Below are positions 2,682 to 8,990 of a stretch of DNA of 64,000 nt, in pieces; the stretch's first letter is position 1, and each line of letters starts with the position of its first letter. A program made the translations under genes and the position numbers. Source of the DNA: Anoxybacillus amylolyticus (GTDB lineage: Bacteria > Bacillota > Bacilli > Bacillales > Anoxybacillaceae); contig NZ_CP015438.1 of the NCBI RefSeq assembly GCF_001634285.1, positions 244,501 through 308,500 of the forward strand, written 5' to 3'. The notes under the pieces are model-generated. The model had not been told where the DNA came from and ran no database searches. It worked only from the letters and a program-made list of their open reading frames with translations.

Positions 2682-3455
2682 ATGATGGAATTGGACCAAG
2701 CGCGCCAGCGGCTACAAGAACTGGGCCTCGAACGAGCAGCTCATATGTTGGATGCAGAGCTGGAAACCGCAATTCATGCCCAAAGTCCCTACCTTACGTT
2801 TTTAAATCGGCTCTTGGATGTCGAAATCTCCGAACGACAAAGGCGGAATCTGGAAGTCAGGACCAAGCTGGCGCATCTTCCGTACCGAAAAACACTTGAT
2901 GAGTTTGACTTTTCCTTTCAGCCCAGTGTCGATGAACGTCTGATCCGTGAATTGGGTACCATGGCATTTGTGGCCCGACATGAAAACGTGTTGCTATTAG
3001 GCCCTCCCGGCGTCGGAAAAAGCCACTTGGCAGTGGCTCTCGCCATAAAAGCAATTGAACTTGGGATTTCCGTATACTTCGTAAGCCTGACCTATATGAT
3101 CGAAGATCTTCGAAAGGCTTATATGGAGAACCGTCTGAACAAGCGGTTGCGAATCTACACAAGACCCAAAATTCTTGTGATTGACGAAATCGGGTATCAT
3201 CCTCTTGATGAACTGGCAGCGAATCTCTTATTTCAGGTGATCTGTGCCCGATATGAACGTGGAAGCATTGTGTTGACCAGCAACAAAAGCATCAGTCAAT
3301 GGGGTGAACTGCTTGGAGACGAAGTCTTGGCAACTGCGGTCGTAGACCGCCTCCTCCATCATTCTCACGTTATCAACATACGAGGAAACAGCTATCGCTT
3401 GAAAGAACGCATGCGGACAGGAATTGATCCAAGCCTGAATGCAATGAAAAAATAA
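2682..3455 (+). CDS. istB: IstB, ATP-binding helper of IS21 element A
   Basis: 257 residues with Walker [10 protein letters not shown], Walker B ILVIDEIGY and LTSNKS. It is the downstream gene of element A, separated from its istA by the 2.2-kb insertion of element B, so any translational coupling is lost. It starts at ATGATG; in the reconstructed element the istA stop TGA overlaps this start. The ORF itself is intact, but its partner istA is destroyed, so element A cannot move without help in trans. Confidence 0.92.
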   Translation: MMELDQARQRLQELGLERAAHMLDAELETAIHAQSPYLTFLNRLLDVEISERQRRNLEVRTKLAHLPYRKTLDEFDFSFQPSVDERLIRELGTMAFVARHENVLLLGPPGVGKSHLAVALAIKAIELGISVYFVSLTYMIEDLRKAYMENRLNKRLRIYTRPKILVIDEIGYHPLDELAANLLFQVICARYERGSIVLTSNKSISQWGELLGDEVLATAVVDRLLHHSHVINIRGNSYRLKERMRTGIDPSLNAMKK

Positions 3456-3520: not shown

Positions 3521-3838
3521 CTAACGAATAAAATGAGTTGTCAAGGATCCTGCTATCACACCAATAATTACAGACAGAAGAAATGACTTAAATATCTTCA
3601 TGCAGATAGCAACTATAATCCCTGCAACTATAACGGGAAATGATAATGAGATTTTACCGTTTTTAATATAGAACAACTGAGACGCTACGAGTGCGGATAT
3701 TGCTCCAGCTGGAACATAGTTTAAATACATTTGTACTCTACTATTTACTTGTCTCCCAATTAACGCTTCAATTCCCGCAATTCGGCTAATGTATGTTAAA
3801 ATAGCCAATATTATTATTAATAACCAATTATTCCACAT
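3521..3838 (-). CDS. azlD: AzlD-family small subunit of an amino acid exporter
   Basis: 105 residues, nearly all in hydrophobic segments, with the family sequence TYISRIAGIEALIGR near the N-terminus. AzlD pairs with AzlC to form a branched-chain amino acid exporter, known in B. subtilis from azaleucine resistance. The start lies inside the end of azlC (11-base overlap), as is usual for this pair. The TAG stop abuts the end of IS21 element A at 3520, so the element inserted right behind the coding region without shortening the protein to an unusual length. Confidence 0.85.
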   Translation of the reverse strand: MWNNWLLIIILAILTYISRIAGIEALIGRQVNSRVQMYLNYVPAGAISALVASQLFYIKNGKISLSFPVIVAGIIVAICMKIFKSFLLSVIIGVIAGSLTTHFIR

Positions 3839-4550
3839 TGGACTTTCGACTCCTTAAATAGCATCCAACGAACGGAGAAATGAAACCTGCGAGTAAAATG
3901 ACATAAGGCGACCCAGGTACAAAAATTTCATTTGCAATTGTAATTATTGCTCCTGTAAGTGCTGTTGCTATAATAGGTTTATCTTTTATTATTTGAGAAA
4001 GAATCGCAACGAAAGTCATGGGAAAGGCCAAATCCAGGCCTAAATCTTGGGTATTGATATGTCCTCCTATAATTGCACCGATAAATGATGTAGCCACCCA
4101 AGTTAAGTAAAAAACAATAGTAATTATTCCAAAATACAATGGATCGGGGCCAAAAGATTGAAATCGAGCAGTTCCTAATACAAAAGGCTCATCCGATACT
4201 CCAAAAGCTAACAGCCATCTCCATTTTTTTGCCGTGCTAATTCCTGAAGCTAATGTTGCACCATATAACAAGTTTCGTAAATTTAGCAAAACTGCGGTTC
4301 CAATAATACTAACTAAACCAGCACCGGCAGTATGCATTGCAATCGATATCATTTGCACCGAACCTGAAAAAACCAACGCTGACATTGCGACTGTACCTAA
4401 TACACCGAATCCAGCATGAATACCAAGTACTCCATAAGGTATTCCATATGTAGCAATACCAATTGCAAGAGGGAACGCATCACGGATCCCCTGTCGTATC
4501 GTATTATGTAATAAGATATTTTTATTGATTACTAAGTCGTTGCTTTTCAT
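3828..4550 (-). CDS. azlC: AzlC-family exporter large subunit (branched-chain amino acid type)
   Basis: 240 residues and about seven or eight membrane segments. It contains the AzlC-type stretch AMSALVFSGSVQ and NLRNLLYGA, plus SDEPF further on. With AzlD it should export hydrophobic amino acids or analogues across the membrane. Its ATG overlaps the TGA of the preceding SagB-type gene (ATGA) with AGAGGAG just upstream, so the two are translated together. That arrangement suggests the exporter handles the product of, or something controlled with, the flavin enzyme upstream. The actual substrate is inference. Confidence 0.85.
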   Translation of the reverse strand: MKSNDLVINKNILLHNTIRQGIRDAFPLAIGIATYGIPYGVLGIHAGFGVLGTVAMSALVFSGSVQMISIAMHTAGAGLVSIIGTAVLLNLRNLLYGATLASGISTAKKWRWLLAFGVSDEPFVLGTARFQSFGPDPLYFGIITIVFYLTWVATSFIGAIIGGHINTQDLGLDLAFPMTFVAILSQIIKDKPIIATALTGAIITIANEIFVPGSPYVILLAGFISPFVGCYLRSRKSNVE

Positions 4551-5644
4551 TCAAAACTCCTCTTTCTTTGATTTTTACTATCTCTTAATGAAACATGTTC
4601 CAGGATTTTTTCATCAAAACTTTTATTTTCGCCAATTCCAGCTCCCACAAAAAACAATGTACTTTCGCTTACTCCATCAATTCCAAGAAATGAATCCACT
4701 TCTCTATCATGAAAAGCACCGGTTAGCCAAGACTGGTATCCTAAACTTGTTGCACAAAGTTGGAATGTTTGTGATACGTGCCCAATATCAAGTAACACAT
4801 TCCTATACGCACGAGAATGACGATATTTCCACCAAGCCTTATCAAATCTAGCAGTTATAAAAATTCCCACAGATAACCCACGAGCATAATATTGGTGATA
4901 CAGTAATTCAATTAGCCTATCCTCTGATATTTCTTCTGTAAGAAGTGTAAGTTTATGGTCCATACGATAATGGTAAACTCCTGGATTTAGTCCATCAACA
5001 CGAAGCGCTAATACATAAGCTTCTTCTGGATGTAATCCTCCTCCCGATGGACTTGATTTCCGTATCCCTGTTGTAAGAAGTCCGTTTTCATTTAAATCCG
5101 ACCAATCACCGTGAATTGGTCCAAACGTCATGTATAGCAACGTTGATAAAGTATTTAGTGGCATGACACCCCCATTAAATACGCGGGAGGTTTTTCTATC
5201 CTTTAACGTCGATAATAATGTCTTGTTATTAAAAAGCGAATAGTCAGGATCTGGTAAATCAATGATATGACCTTGACGCTTAGTGAATAAATCAGGTTGT
5301 TCATTAATAATAGATTCACAGTATTCTAGATATTCTTCTACCCATGTATCGTAATCTGGGTTTTCGACTTTAGTAATCGGTATATTTTGTGTTCCTTTAT
5401 GAAAAATATGAGAAAGTACATCCCATCCCCAATCATCAATAATTGGAGGTTCTAATTGAACTATATTTGCTTCAATCAAATCTTTATCGATTGAACTATC
5501 ATCGACTCTTTCACCATTATTCAATTCCAATAAACGTTTTACATATCTAGGTTCTAAAGCAAATTGTTGATGATTGAAATAGTCCCAAACAATTACTTCC
5601 CCGTTTCTAAATAACATAAAAATATATGGATTAATATAAGCCAT
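4547..5644 (-). CDS. SagB/ThcOx-type flavin dehydrogenase (nitroreductase fold)
   Basis: 365 residues from the ATG at 5644, chosen for AAGGAG 7 bases upstream; a longer frame to 5698 has no ribosome site. The N-terminal 140 or so residues resemble the winged-helix region of SagB proteins. The nitroreductase-fold half begins near SRVFNGG and carries the family signature SSPSGGGLHPEEAYVLAL and VLLDIGHVSQTFQL. SagB-type enzymes bind FMN and oxidise azolines to azoles in thiazole/oxazole peptide maturation. No cyclodehydratase (YcaO) or E1-like gene is in the window, so the substrate is unknown. It is co-transcribed with azlCD and preceded by a 21-codon peptide gene. Confidence 0.87.
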   Translation of the reverse strand: MAYINPYIFMLFRNGEVIVWDYFNHQQFALEPRYVKRLLELNNGERVDDSSIDKDLIEANIVQLEPPIIDDWGWDVLSHIFHKGTQNIPITKVENPDYDTWVEEYLEYCESIINEQPDLFTKRQGHIIDLPDPDYSLFNNKTLLSTLKDRKTSRVFNGGVMPLNTLSTLLYMTFGPIHGDWSDLNENGLLTTGIRKSSPSGGGLHPEEAYVLALRVDGLNPGVYHYRMDHKLTLLTEEISEDRLIELLYHQYYARGLSVGIFITARFDKAWWKYRHSRAYRNVLLDIGHVSQTFQLCATSLGYQSWLTGAFHDREVDSFLGIDGVSESTLFFVGAGIGENKSFDEKILEHVSLRDSKNQRKRSFE

Positions 5645-5685
5645 AATAAAACTCCTTATATATTTAGTTAATTCAATGAAATTTT

Positions 5686-5713
5686 GGTGGCATCTCAATA
5701 ATGGGATGCCACC
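5686..5713 (-). promoter_or_regulatory. Stem-loop between the small peptide gene and the SagB-type gene
   Basis: GGTGGCATC (5686-5694) pairs with GATGCCACC (5705-5713): a 9-bp perfect stem with a 10-base loop, starting 7 bases after the peptide's stop codon. No T-run follows on the minus strand, so it is not a standard terminator. It may be an mRNA-stability or attenuation element that keeps the peptide transcript more abundant than the enzyme message. Confidence 0.7.
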
Positions 5714-5720
5714 GTTTAAA

Positions 5721-5786
5721 TTACTTACGTACGATTACAGGGAGCAGAGCGCAGAAATTTTTGCTTTCAAGCTGAATTTTTTTCAC
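5721..5786 (-). CDS. 21-residue peptide (candidate RiPP precursor or leader peptide)
   Basis: A GTG start at 5786 sits 8 bases behind a perfect AGGAGG (AGGAGGGG), the best ribosome site in this area. The peptide begins MKKIQLESKNF and ends CALLPVIVRK, with TAA at 5721-5723. It lies 78 bases before the SagB-type gene in the same transcript, between a consensus promoter and a stem-loop. Two readings fit: a substrate of the flavin enzyme (one Cys, one Ser), or a regulatory leader peptide whose Leu-Leu-Pro-Val-Ile-Val codons sense branched-chain amino acids, the likely cargo of AzlCD. I know no homologue. That it is translated is well supported; its role is not. Confidence 0.65.
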   Translation of the reverse strand: MKKIQLESKNFCALLPVIVRK

Positions 5787-5927
5787 AACAATCCCCTCCT
5801 ATCTTTACAAAGATTAATCCGCGGACAACTATATTATATATATAATTTCACAATCATGGTACATTTTATAAGTAAAAATATTTCGACAATTTCCTCCATT
5901 AACGCTTTAGTGTGTTGATTGAGTTTG

Positions 5928-5956
5928 ATTATATTGGAAACAATTTATACAGTCAA
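5928..5956 (-). promoter_or_regulatory. Sigma-A promoter of the peptide–sagB–azlCD operon
   Basis: On the minus strand TTGACT (5951-5956), a 17-base spacer, then TATAAT (5928-5933). Start of transcription is expected near 5921, giving a leader of about 135 bases before the peptide gene. Confidence 0.8.
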
Positions 5957-6596: not shown

Positions 6597-8180
6597 TTAC
6601 GATTGAGTTGTTCGACATACAAGCGGTAACGTTGGAGACCAAGGCAGCAGATTGTCCAGCGCTTCCGTATCTTTTGGATCTGCAAGCTGCGGAAGCTGCT
6701 CAAACAGATACTTCAAGTATTGGAACGGATTCAGTCCGTTCTCTTTCGCGGTCTCAATCACGCTGTAGATCGTCGCGCTGGCCTGTGCTCCGCGAGGCGA
6801 GTTGGCAAACAGCCAGTTCTTTCGTCCAATCACAAATGGCTTGATCGACCTTTCGCTGCGGTTGTTGTCGATCTCCAGACGACCATCCTGCAGGAAAGCC
6901 GTCAGTTTGTCCCATTGGTTCAAGCTGTACGCAATCGCCTGTCCGAGCAGACTTTTTGGCAGCGTTCGGGGCCGTTGCTTTTGAAGCCATGCCAAATAGG
7001 CCTCCAAGATGGGCTTGCTTCGCTCCATTCGGACGGCATAGCGTTCTTCCGGCGACGCGTCCCTAAGCCCTCGCTCAATCGCAAAGAGCTGGTTGCAAAA
7101 CTCCAGTCCCTGTCGGGCCGCCGTTTCGGTTTTCGGTTGTCCGGCAGGCATCGCCTTCAGCGCCTCGTCGAACTTGCGGCGCGCATGCGCCCAGCATCCA
7201 ACGAGGGTCACGCCCTGCACCTTATGGTAACCGGAATACCCGTCAACGTGCAGGTAGCCGCGAAATCCCGAAAGAAAGTTTCGCGGATGCTCCCCGTTTC
7301 GCGTCGGCTTGTAGTCGTACAGGACGATCGGCGGGCCCATGCGCCCGGTCCGATACAGCCACAAGTACGATTGCGTCTCGGCTGATTTGCCCGGCTCGCG
7401 CAGCACCTGCAGCGTCGTCTCATCTGCATGCAGAATGTCCTGCTTCAGCAGATGCTCACGCATGCGATCCGTTAGCAGCGACAGCCACTCGGCGCCGTAC
7501 ATCATCCAGTTGGCCAACGTCTGCCGGGAAATCGAAAGTCCCAGACGGGAAAATTGCTGCTCCTGCCGGTACAGCGGCTGGCTGTCCACATACTTCTGTG
7601 TCATCACATACGCCATACTCGAAGGAGAAGCGAGGCTGCCCGGATAGATGGGATTTGGCATCGGGGCCGTTACGATCGGCGTACGGATCTCCTCGCGCTC
7701 GCAGCGGCGGCAAGCATATACCTTGCGCACATGCTGCACCACTTTCACCTGCGCTGGAATAATCGCAATTTCATGACGCGTCTCGGAGCTCATTTCATGA
7801 AGGGGGTTGCCACAGCACGAGCAGACCCGTTCGTCTTCGTTCAACTCATACGTCACCGTCTCCACTGGCAGATGGTCCAGTTTGGCTGTGCGTGGACCGG
7901 CTGGTTTCCGGCGCTCGTACGTAATTTTCTCCATGGGCGGCTCTTCGCCTTTCGGCGTGGCAAGGACTTCTGCTTCGTTGAACAGATCCAACTCCAACTG
8001 GTTCGGATCCGTCTTCTCGCTGGAGGCGCCGAAGCGCTTTTTTTGCGCGAGGCGGAACTGTTCTTCGTACCATTTGAGTTTGGCCGACAGTTCGGCAACC
8101 TGCTGTTCCAGCCTGGCAACCTGAGCCTCATATTCTTCCGTTGTAAGGGTAGGGGTGAGAGCGTTCGTTTTCTTTTCCAT
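6597..8180 (-). CDS. tnpC: IS66 transposase TnpC
   Basis: 527 residues, full length for the family. The order is an N-terminal leucine-zipper-like helix, a zinc-finger-type CSCCGN...CRRCE region (about residues 120-170), the DDE core with HADETT and HVDGYSGYH, and the C-terminal DNNRSERSIKPF box that supplies the catalytic Glu. It cuts and joins the element's ends, with TnpA and TnpB assisting. It sits 65 bases downstream of tnpB. The frame is intact. Confidence 0.96.
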   Translation of the reverse strand: MEKKTNALTPTLTTEEYEAQVARLEQQVAELSAKLKWYEEQFRLAQKKRFGASSEKTDPNQLELDLFNEAEVLATPKGEEPPMEKITYERRKPAGPRTAKLDHLPVETVTYELNEDERVCSCCGNPLHEMSSETRHEIAIIPAQVKVVQHVRKVYACRRCEREEIRTPIVTAPMPNPIYPGSLASPSSMAYVMTQKYVDSQPLYRQEQQFSRLGLSISRQTLANWMMYGAEWLSLLTDRMREHLLKQDILHADETTLQVLREPGKSAETQSYLWLYRTGRMGPPIVLYDYKPTRNGEHPRNFLSGFRGYLHVDGYSGYHKVQGVTLVGCWAHARRKFDEALKAMPAGQPKTETAARQGLEFCNQLFAIERGLRDASPEERYAVRMERSKPILEAYLAWLQKQRPRTLPKSLLGQAIAYSLNQWDKLTAFLQDGRLEIDNNRSERSIKPFVIGRKNWLFANSPRGAQASATIYSVIETAKENGLNPFQYLKYLFEQLPQLADPKDTEALDNLLPWSPTLPLVCRTTQS

Positions 8181-8245
8181 ACCGATTCATTTCTACACCG
8201 ATCCCCGGATTCCTTGTGGTCAATGGGCTGACAGGGTGAATTGTT

Positions 8246-8602
8246 TCAAATGACATACTTTGCCCGAACGGCAGGATGCGCCTGCTGTTGTTCCAGCGAC
8301 AGGCCGTCCAGTAGCCATCGTAATTCGCGGCCGCTCATCTCAAGCGGCCGTGCGGATGGAGCCATCGGCCACGGAAACCTCCCGCGCTCCAATCGGCGGT
8401 AGAAGAGCCAGAAGCCGTTGTGGTCCCAGAACAGAATCTTTACTTTGTCCCGTTGCCGGTTGCAGAAGACAAACAGCGCGGGAGAGAACGGATCCAGCTC
8501 GAATCCTTCCTGCACCAGGGCGGCCAACCCGTCGATCGATTTGCGGAGATCGGTGCTGCCGCAGGCAAGATAGACGCGGATCGAATTCGGAATGCTTAGC
8601 AT
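8246..8602 (-). CDS. tnpB: IS66 TnpB (Orf2)
   Basis: 118 residues with the IS66 Orf2 signature: GSTDLRKSIDGLAALV near the N-terminus, then FVFCNRQRDKVKILFWDHNG. It is needed for IS66 transposition, but its biochemical role is not settled. It overlaps the end of tnpA by 7 bases, which suggests translational coupling. Intact. Confidence 0.95.
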   Translation of the reverse strand: MLSIPNSIRVYLACGSTDLRKSIDGLAALVQEGFELDPFSPALFVFCNRQRDKVKILFWDHNGFWLFYRRLERGRFPWPMAPSARPLEMSGRELRWLLDGLSLEQQQAHPAVRAKYVI

Positions 8603-8928
8603 AAGGGCATCAAGGTCTGAACAACCTGACGGAGAAGTTGGGGATCAAAACCGTTTGCGACCTCGATGGATACCTGGCCGATCCGAATGACAACCCCTGG
8701 ATCCGGGTTCTGGTTTTCAGGGGAGGATGTCACGGTCACTGGTACCCAACCCATGGTAGAAGCATTTGTCCGACTCGAATCGGATAGCCGTTTCAAACGA
8801 TTCAGCCAATATTTCAATTGATGAATGGAAATGCCTTGCGCCTCGCACCATGCGGCCATCGTAAGTCCGCTGGTTCGGTACTCTTCCACGCGAGAAGTCC
8901 ATTCCCGGATCCGTTGCTCACGATCCAT
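8596..8928 (-). CDS. tnpA: IS66 TnpA (Orf1)
   Basis: 110 residues. The start at 8928 is chosen for AAAGGAGG about 9 bases upstream; a frame open to 8973 lacks such a site. The N-terminal part (REWTSRVEEYRTSGLTMAAWCEAQGI) is a helix-turn-helix of the type seen in IS66 Orf1 proteins. First gene of the element, overlapping tnpB. Its first third matches 1-122. Confidence 0.92.
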   Translation of the reverse strand: MDREQRIREWTSRVEEYRTSGLTMAAWCEAQGISIHQLKYWLNRLKRLSDSSRTNASTMGWVPVTVTSSPENQNPDPGVVIRIGQVSIEVANGFDPQLLRQVVQTLMPLC

Positions 8929-8990
8929 GAGATCTTGACCTCCTTTTTCATGTGCTTGAGGCCATTGTCTCATGAATGATGAATCGGATA

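Follow-up and report, generated by a model that had tools for sequence, protein, structure and literature searches.

The closest described counterparts of the operon considered here, which joins a tiny open reading frame (ORF), a SagB-family dehydrogenase gene and an azlCD pair in Anoxybacillus amylolyticus, come from clusters for ribosomally synthesized and post-translationally modified peptides (RiPPs) that do without the YcaO cyclodehydratase. A 2025 preprint reports that the nitroreductase domain of PflD, from the pfl/pos clusters of Pseudomonas, makes Z-dehydrophenylalanine in a peptide without YcaO, and describes the nitroreductases of RiPP clusters that are YcaO-free (or MNIO-fused) as rare and without functional characterization (PMC12636437). 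Similarly, branch 6 of the ATP-grasp (graspetide-like) loci, as described in another paper, contains a SagB-like enzyme together with a small predicted precursor (PMC8939145). Hence the statement of an earlier note, made from the letters of this DNA, that no such system had been described holds in part: YcaO-free nitroreductases in RiPP clusters are on record in both sources just cited, and a literature search, with subscription papers mostly outside its reach, found no account of a peptide-SagB-AzlCD operon. The DNA analyzed is a 64,000-nt window of NZ_CP015438.1, whose numbering is used throughout, and the operon occupies 5956-3521 with all of its parts on the minus strand. Its best explanation, which we hold with slightly more confidence than doubt, is a minimal RiPP-like operon in which the SagB enzyme directly dehydrogenates a 21-residue peptide and AzlCD exports the product.

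Parts of the operon

At the head of the operon lies a sigma-A-type promoter, TTGACT-17-TATAAT (5956-5928), agreeing with the consensus at 11 of 12 positions. Between 3300 and 6600 there are nine promoter-like sites as against a shuffle mean of 13.9, so that only the quality of this particular promoter is notable. Downstream of it the Shine-Dalgarno sequence AGGAGGGG (5800-5793) stands 6 nt ahead of the GTG start of a 21-codon ORF, MKKIQLESKNFCALLPVIVRK (5786-5721), the candidate precursor peptide; when the 356-nt interval was shuffled 5000 times with its dinucleotides kept, a perfect AGGAGG followed by an ORF of 15-60 codons arose 8 times. The gap between this ORF and sagB carries a stable hairpin (5714-5685) with no U-run on the minus strand, and the folding energy of the gap is -20.8 kcal/mol, where shuffles average -9.2 and none of 500 is as stable; an Rfam search gave no matches. 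Then come the Shine-Dalgarno sequence AAGGAG (5657-5652) and sagB itself (5644-4547), which codes for a long-form SagB-family flavin mononucleotide (FMN) dehydrogenase of 365 aa, comprising an N-terminal region of about 110 aa and a nitroreductase core. Its stop overlaps, in an ATGA, the start of the AzlC-family permease subunit gene (4550-3828), which in turn overlaps that of the AzlD-family subunit (3838-3521).

The SagB protein scores 122 bits against TIGR03605, above the cut-off of 78.4, and 52 bits against PF00881, which is its sole Pfam match, the MNIO fusion typical of PflD being absent. Against TIGR04511, a putative peptide maturation dehydrogenase model, it reaches 162.2 bits, below the curated cut-off of 240. 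The core matches ThcOx, 3eo7, BmdC and McbC in sequence and fold, and a W-K-Y set is invariant in all six rows of alignment A3; the Lys-Tyr pair of the active site is important in the SagB/ThcOx family. The paired AzlCD domains are likewise present (AzlC, PF03591, 105.3 bits; AzlD, PF05437, 63.4 bits), with AzlC scoring 77.7 bits against the azaleucine resistance equivalog TIGR00346, whose cut-off of 332.35 it does not reach. The promoter, close to consensus, the perfect ribosome site before a tiny ORF, the stem-loop after it and the member of the azole-forming dehydrogenase family coupled by ATGA to a pair of the amino acid exporter family, all described in the earlier note, are each confirmed.

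Recurrence of the tiny ORF and hairpin

The layout was formalized as a Shine-Dalgarno-led ORF of 18-60 codons whose end precedes the gene by 20-150 nt, the space between the two holding a stem of 8 or more pairs. With automatically assigned starts and the sagB gene itself as the reference, 9 of 16 long-form loci pass this rule (the window and those designated L044, L127, L041, L042, L160, L150, L153 and L119) as against 2 of 59 short-form loci, a comparison whose weak point is that the long-form loci were hand-picked and their upstream regions already seen before the rule was written. The Fisher p is 4e-6 for these counts, 2e-5 for 8/15, without the orthologue L119, and 1e-4 for 7/15; the tiny ORF of L153, which forms the 3' portion of a longer annotated ORF (113 aa), is doubtful, and without it the count is 8/16. 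The short-form control comprised 59 of 64 loci, leaving out L069 (no ORF), L053, L054 and L083 (upstream region too short) and L047 (a long-form gene, which fails). In the automatic run a different nitroreductase gene was picked for L156 and an upstream start for L110 and L128. When the first gene of the operon was instead set by hand, as the ATP-grasp gene in L149, the radical SAM gene in L129 and likewise in L110, 11 of 15 long-form loci pass (10/14 minus the orthologue L119), against 2 of 63 in a short-form control that includes a few long-form genes (L047, L053, L054). In a general control 6 of 57 genes pass, namely three long-form genes (window, L044, L042), the apparent precursor of a YcaO pathway at locus L043 and two others. 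Outside both counts are L157 (at a record start), the second SagB gene of L042 (tiny ORFs beyond the allowed distance), L151 (no annotation) and L111 and L112 (alignment confined to the catalytic part). The succession of tiny ORF, hairpin and sagB is well supported for the long-form family, and weakly so for this very peptide.

These counts bear on a rival explanation that we regard as unlikely, in which the tiny ORF is incidental and the operon joins a nitroreductase-type enzyme to an amino-acid pump as an ordinary set for detoxification or amino-acid stress. Such a reading would sit well with the commonness of short-form SagB/nitroreductase genes, with the want of a peptide homologue in plasmids, with a decayed copy in the genome G034 that points to a dispensable enzyme, and with the 7 of 16 long-form loci having no tiny ORF directly before sagB, but it has to contend with a layout far commoner in long-form than in short-form loci, with the rarity in shuffles of an ORF having such a ribosome site and with a TIGR03605 score well above the cut-off. 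The earlier note had taken a SagB homologue lacking the preceding ORF as telling against its proposal; some long-form loci are indeed of this kind, even as the enrichment speaks on the other side.

Among the genomes of relatives, 28 of 101 have a match at E 0.001, often a weak one; at E 1e-18 matches number 11/397 in the order, 6/41 in the family, 34/398 in the class and 37/398 in the phylum, and many of these belong to the short form, whose open frames are some 230-300 aa long. One long-form relative, with 37% identity over 344 aa, comes from a gut contig filed as phage, MT837218.1 (L160), and pairs with the window protein in the tree at 98/68, the deep branches being without resolution. No phage gene was noticed by eye on this contig. 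Other long-form relatives occur in the plasmid collection (Maritalea, Priestia, Streptomyces, Rhizobium, Roseateles, Natrinema, Halorussus, Ligilactobacillus and Nonomuraea records), in the G005/G024/G008/G028 group of genomes and on contig C3 of the source genome. The other genes of the long-form loci vary: a carbamoyltransferase in L160 and, on the opposite strand, in the Halorussus locus L154, both with SagB and a major facilitator superfamily (MFS) gene; radical SAM and methyltransferase genes in L129; YcaO and TfuA genes in L128; and an MvdD-type ATP-grasp gene before the long-form SagB in L110 and L149, the latter just under the Pfam cut-off. An exact 8-residue-pattern search of genome contigs, which misses distant kin, returned only two short-form genes of Bacteroidales besides the Neobacillus fumarioli contig; the operon had no blastn match in plasmids, and four queries of viral contigs produced pattern matches with no relative confirmed.

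The locus on C3 (L042, 4901-10874) has two SagB-like genes, one more ORF of weak similarity and, as its last gene (392 aa), one that is transporter-like by eye and has no Pfam match. It also carries a tiny ORF of 39 aa and a hairpin of 21 pairs, with transposase-like ORFs between the two SagB-like genes, whose proteins have Arg in place of the Lys of W-K-Y.

Weighing of the readings

The sequence of the window peptide was not found elsewhere, a search of plasmids giving no match, and the copy in N. fumarioli is the same sequence and hence not independent; by the refuting condition of the earlier note on conservation of the peptide, this goes against its proposal. Its best similarities among 45 pairs (0.0225 against the peptide of L149 and 0.065 against that of G005) are not convincing. 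In the G005 group, all gaps between the peptide ORF and its orthologue are in frame (6, 6, 3 and 24 nt), while the stretch downstream of the ORF carries an 8-nt indel. Ahead of the core 12 codons are the same, and among the ten codons that precede the stop 6 are changed, all non-synonymously. This counts as one comparison since the three orthologues are identical in the ORF, and on sequence grounds it suggests the pattern of a precursor, with a constant leader and a variable core. The peptide ends of Maritalea (VLDVNGVC) and Streptomyces (MLDLNGNC) are also alike, with none of 400 shuffles scoring as high. A C-terminal [MV]LD[LV]NG[NV]C ending in Cys is shared across phyla by these ORFs, of L127 (Maritalea, 5762-5839) and L129 (Streptomyces, 3325-3426), both loci with a long-form SagB and an MFS gene.

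The G005 pattern, with its kept first part and changed last part, is that of a precursor as opposed to a regulatory leader peptide acting by attenuation or translational coupling, in which case SagB would act on a small molecule exported by AzlCD. We consider this alternative quite unlikely. It draws on the hairpin after the ORF, on the description of the AzlD Pfam family as branched-chain amino acid transport and on the hydrophobic run LLPVIV, given that a 6-residue window with at least five L/I/V occurs in 525 of 20000 random 21-mers from window ORFs; yet seven L/I/V in 21 residues is ordinary (3950/20000 such 21-mers), and the tiny ORFs of most relatives have, by eye, no such run. Moreover, the hairpin lacks a U-run on the minus strand, no competing pairing was found (the best upstream partners of the hairpin arms were matched or bettered in 263/300 and 276/300 simple shuffles), and starvation-type attenuation would presumably turn the exporter on at the wrong time. 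An attenuator as such was rejected for want of a U-run and of a competing pairing.

As regards YcaO, the earlier note was right that no cyclodehydratase lies nearby: the single match in the source genome is on contig C2 (26945-27925), not beside the operon, and the N. fumarioli genome (99% complete) has no match. The operon, if it works in N. fumarioli, therefore works without YcaO. Among seven genomes with related loci five have no YcaO match (N. fumarioli, G005, G008, G028 and G034), G024 and G400 having one or more each, and of 15 long-form stretches L128 is the only one where annotation, a genome search or inspection by eye showed a YcaO. An azole pathway with the C2 YcaO working in trans is thus highly improbable; one YcaO match in the genome and one Cys in the peptide would allow it, but the C2 enzyme has two SagB-family genes and a PqqD domain of its own close by, and the genomes with no YcaO match, that of N. 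fumarioli and those with related loci, speak against it.

The C2 locus itself (L043, about C2:20889-27925, minus strand) comprises the YcaO gene, the two SagB-family matches and the PqqD-domain gene. An apparent 57-aa YcaO-pathway precursor, recognized by eye, and a hairpin precede the PqqD-domain gene in an arrangement like that of the window.

AzlCD is a pump family for amino acids, and the Pfam description agrees. A same-direction pump lies downstream in 8 of 14 loci of the hand-start set minus the orthologue L119, being AzlCD in the window and MFS in L044, L127, L041, L160, L153, L156 and L129 (by Pfam for L041 and L160, by annotation for the others), with other enzymes between sagB and the MFS gene in L041, L160 and L153. 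To the question of the earlier note whether azlCD always co-occurs with such a set the answer is accordingly no. A broader reading, possible but to be taken as tentative, is that long-form SagB, tiny peptide and pump make up a widespread YcaO-free natural product class, wherein the 21-aa peptide here would be a mere scaffold for an unsaturated amino acid or dipeptide released by AzlCD; if so, the pathway would be among the smallest of its kind.

In L044 (Priestia) and L156 (the archaeon Natrinema) long-form SagB and MFS genes stand beside nik-type importer genes, such that a metal link is possible, and siderophore genes occur near the Halorussus relative L154. A GTP-binding gene and a TIGR03943 gene lie in the Priestia stretch as well. 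A metallophore reading built on these neighbors was set aside, there being nothing similar beside the window operon, as was a defense system, PADLOC reporting 0 families.

Under the minimal RiPP-like reading, the 21-aa peptide would be a precursor with the N-terminal half MKKIQLESKN as leader and the C-terminal FCALLPVIVRK as substrate, and the hairpin may ensure that more precursor than enzyme is made. The long-form SagB would bind the leader, probably through its N-terminal region, and with FMN would remove two hydrogens directly from a core residue with no prior cyclization by YcaO. The first candidate residues are Phe11, the only Phe of the peptide, which might be converted to dehydro-Phe as reported for PflD, or Cys12. 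A host peptidase would then trim the product, and AzlCD would export a small molecule, be it an amino acid, a dipeptide or a short peptide.

Several observations weigh against this reading. An amino-acid pump family is an odd choice for a peptide, the operon has no protease gene, and azlCD is not the usual partner of SagB, MFS pumps being the commoner neighbor. No diverged homologue of the 21-aa peptide was found, the plasmid search included, because of which the case for its being coding depends on the ribosome site and on a position matching that of the tiny ORFs at other long-form SagB loci; the peptides of different loci are mostly unlike each other. With sagB starts only, the seven failing long-form loci include L149, L129, L154, L110, L128 and L152, and L156, L154 and L110 have no tiny ORF by the rule even in the hand-start run. 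The N-terminal region of SagB is weakly PqqD-like (hhalign 74% with an 11-row profile, 1.5% with a 6-row set), and none of 11 members has a Pfam PqqD match. It was also modeled poorly, with block pLDDT of 28-48 over residues 1-120 in a model built from a 4-row alignment (mean pLDDT 49). This low-confidence model has strands at 8-13, 16-21 and 26-30, then helices at 32-43, 54-59 and 71-83, and because it is poor no claim is made on that part. The fold comparison, which covered mainly residues 135-344 and so excludes nothing, returned no RiPP recognition element chain for it. A leader-binding role of this region is plausible and only suggested. What the earlier note had called a minimal peptide-modifying system with its own export thus stands as the best reading, with YcaO-independence firmer than before, while the outcome for the refuting conditions of that note is mixed.

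Mobile context and comparison with described systems

The operon is probably a mobile, AT-rich cargo between insertion sequence (IS)-type genes. On one flank are IS21-type genes (istB-like at 567-1346 and istA-like at 1340-2596, both minus, and a second istB-like at 2682-3455, plus) and on the other IS66-type transposase genes (6597-8973, minus), all named by eye from translations, and the cargo has 35.0% G+C as against 44.5% for the window from 9229 onward. All 6331 bases of a contig of Neobacillus fumarioli NBRC 102428 align to window 6540-210 with two mismatches, at 5849 in the leader and at 3540 inside azlD; the peptide ORF, the hairpin, sagB and azlC do not differ by a single base. This identity would reflect a recent transfer, contamination being less likely. 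The difference at 5849 falls inside a second 21-codon ORF of the leader, MEEIVEIFLLIKCTMIVKLYI (5899-5834, minus), which is without a clear ribosome site.

The link between sagB and azlCD is older than this transfer, because a decayed locus of G034, a genome of the same family, retains both: the C-terminal half of sagB is kept (75% identity over 168 aa), with azlC (68% identity at the DNA level over 548 bases) and, not far off, an ORF resembling AzlD. Beside these remnants a winged-helix-like ORF (by eye; L040, 3156-3428) is possibly a regulator.

Simple loci of this type, some of only 3-4 genes and each with a candidate substrate, are found in Bacillota, Pseudomonadota, Actinomycetota and a gut contig, and they make the action of the enzyme on the peptide testable by two-gene co-expression. 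The candidate peptides include one of 25 aa in Maritalea, one of 56 aa in MT837218 and, beside two SagB genes, one of 44 or 31 aa in the G005 group. The presence of such sets in microbes far apart suggests a little-explored route by which modified peptides are made with no help from the customary partner enzyme. Should AzlCD export the product, amino-acid pumps would become linked to peptide-derived small molecules.

When set against the described systems, the azlCD pair of the operon belongs to the Pfam AzlC/AzlD families of amino-acid exporters but differs from them in an AzlC lying under the TIGR00346 equivalog cut-off and in the coupling to SagB. With the azol(in)e RiPPs (thiazole/oxazole-modified microcins, TOMMs, or linear azol(in)e-containing peptides, LAPs), as typified by SagB of streptolysin S, McbC of microcin B17 and ThcOx of the cyanobactins, the operon has in common the dehydrogenase family and the core fold, whereas their YcaO cyclodehydratase partner is absent from both the operon and the N. 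fumarioli genome. It resembles the branch 6 loci, as described, in having a SagB-like enzyme with a small predicted precursor, and its relatives L110 and L149 have the ATP-grasp gene that the window operon itself is without (PMC8939145). PflD, according to the preprint, carries a fused MNIO domain and acts alongside an HEXXH enzyme, unlike the SagB of the window, and the pfl/pos precursor is longer than the window peptide, residue Q90 of PosA being named. In their organization, as described, the two are alike: in both, a YcaO-free enzyme of the nitroreductase family is clustered with a precursor peptide, here a candidate one, and with transporters (PMC12636437).

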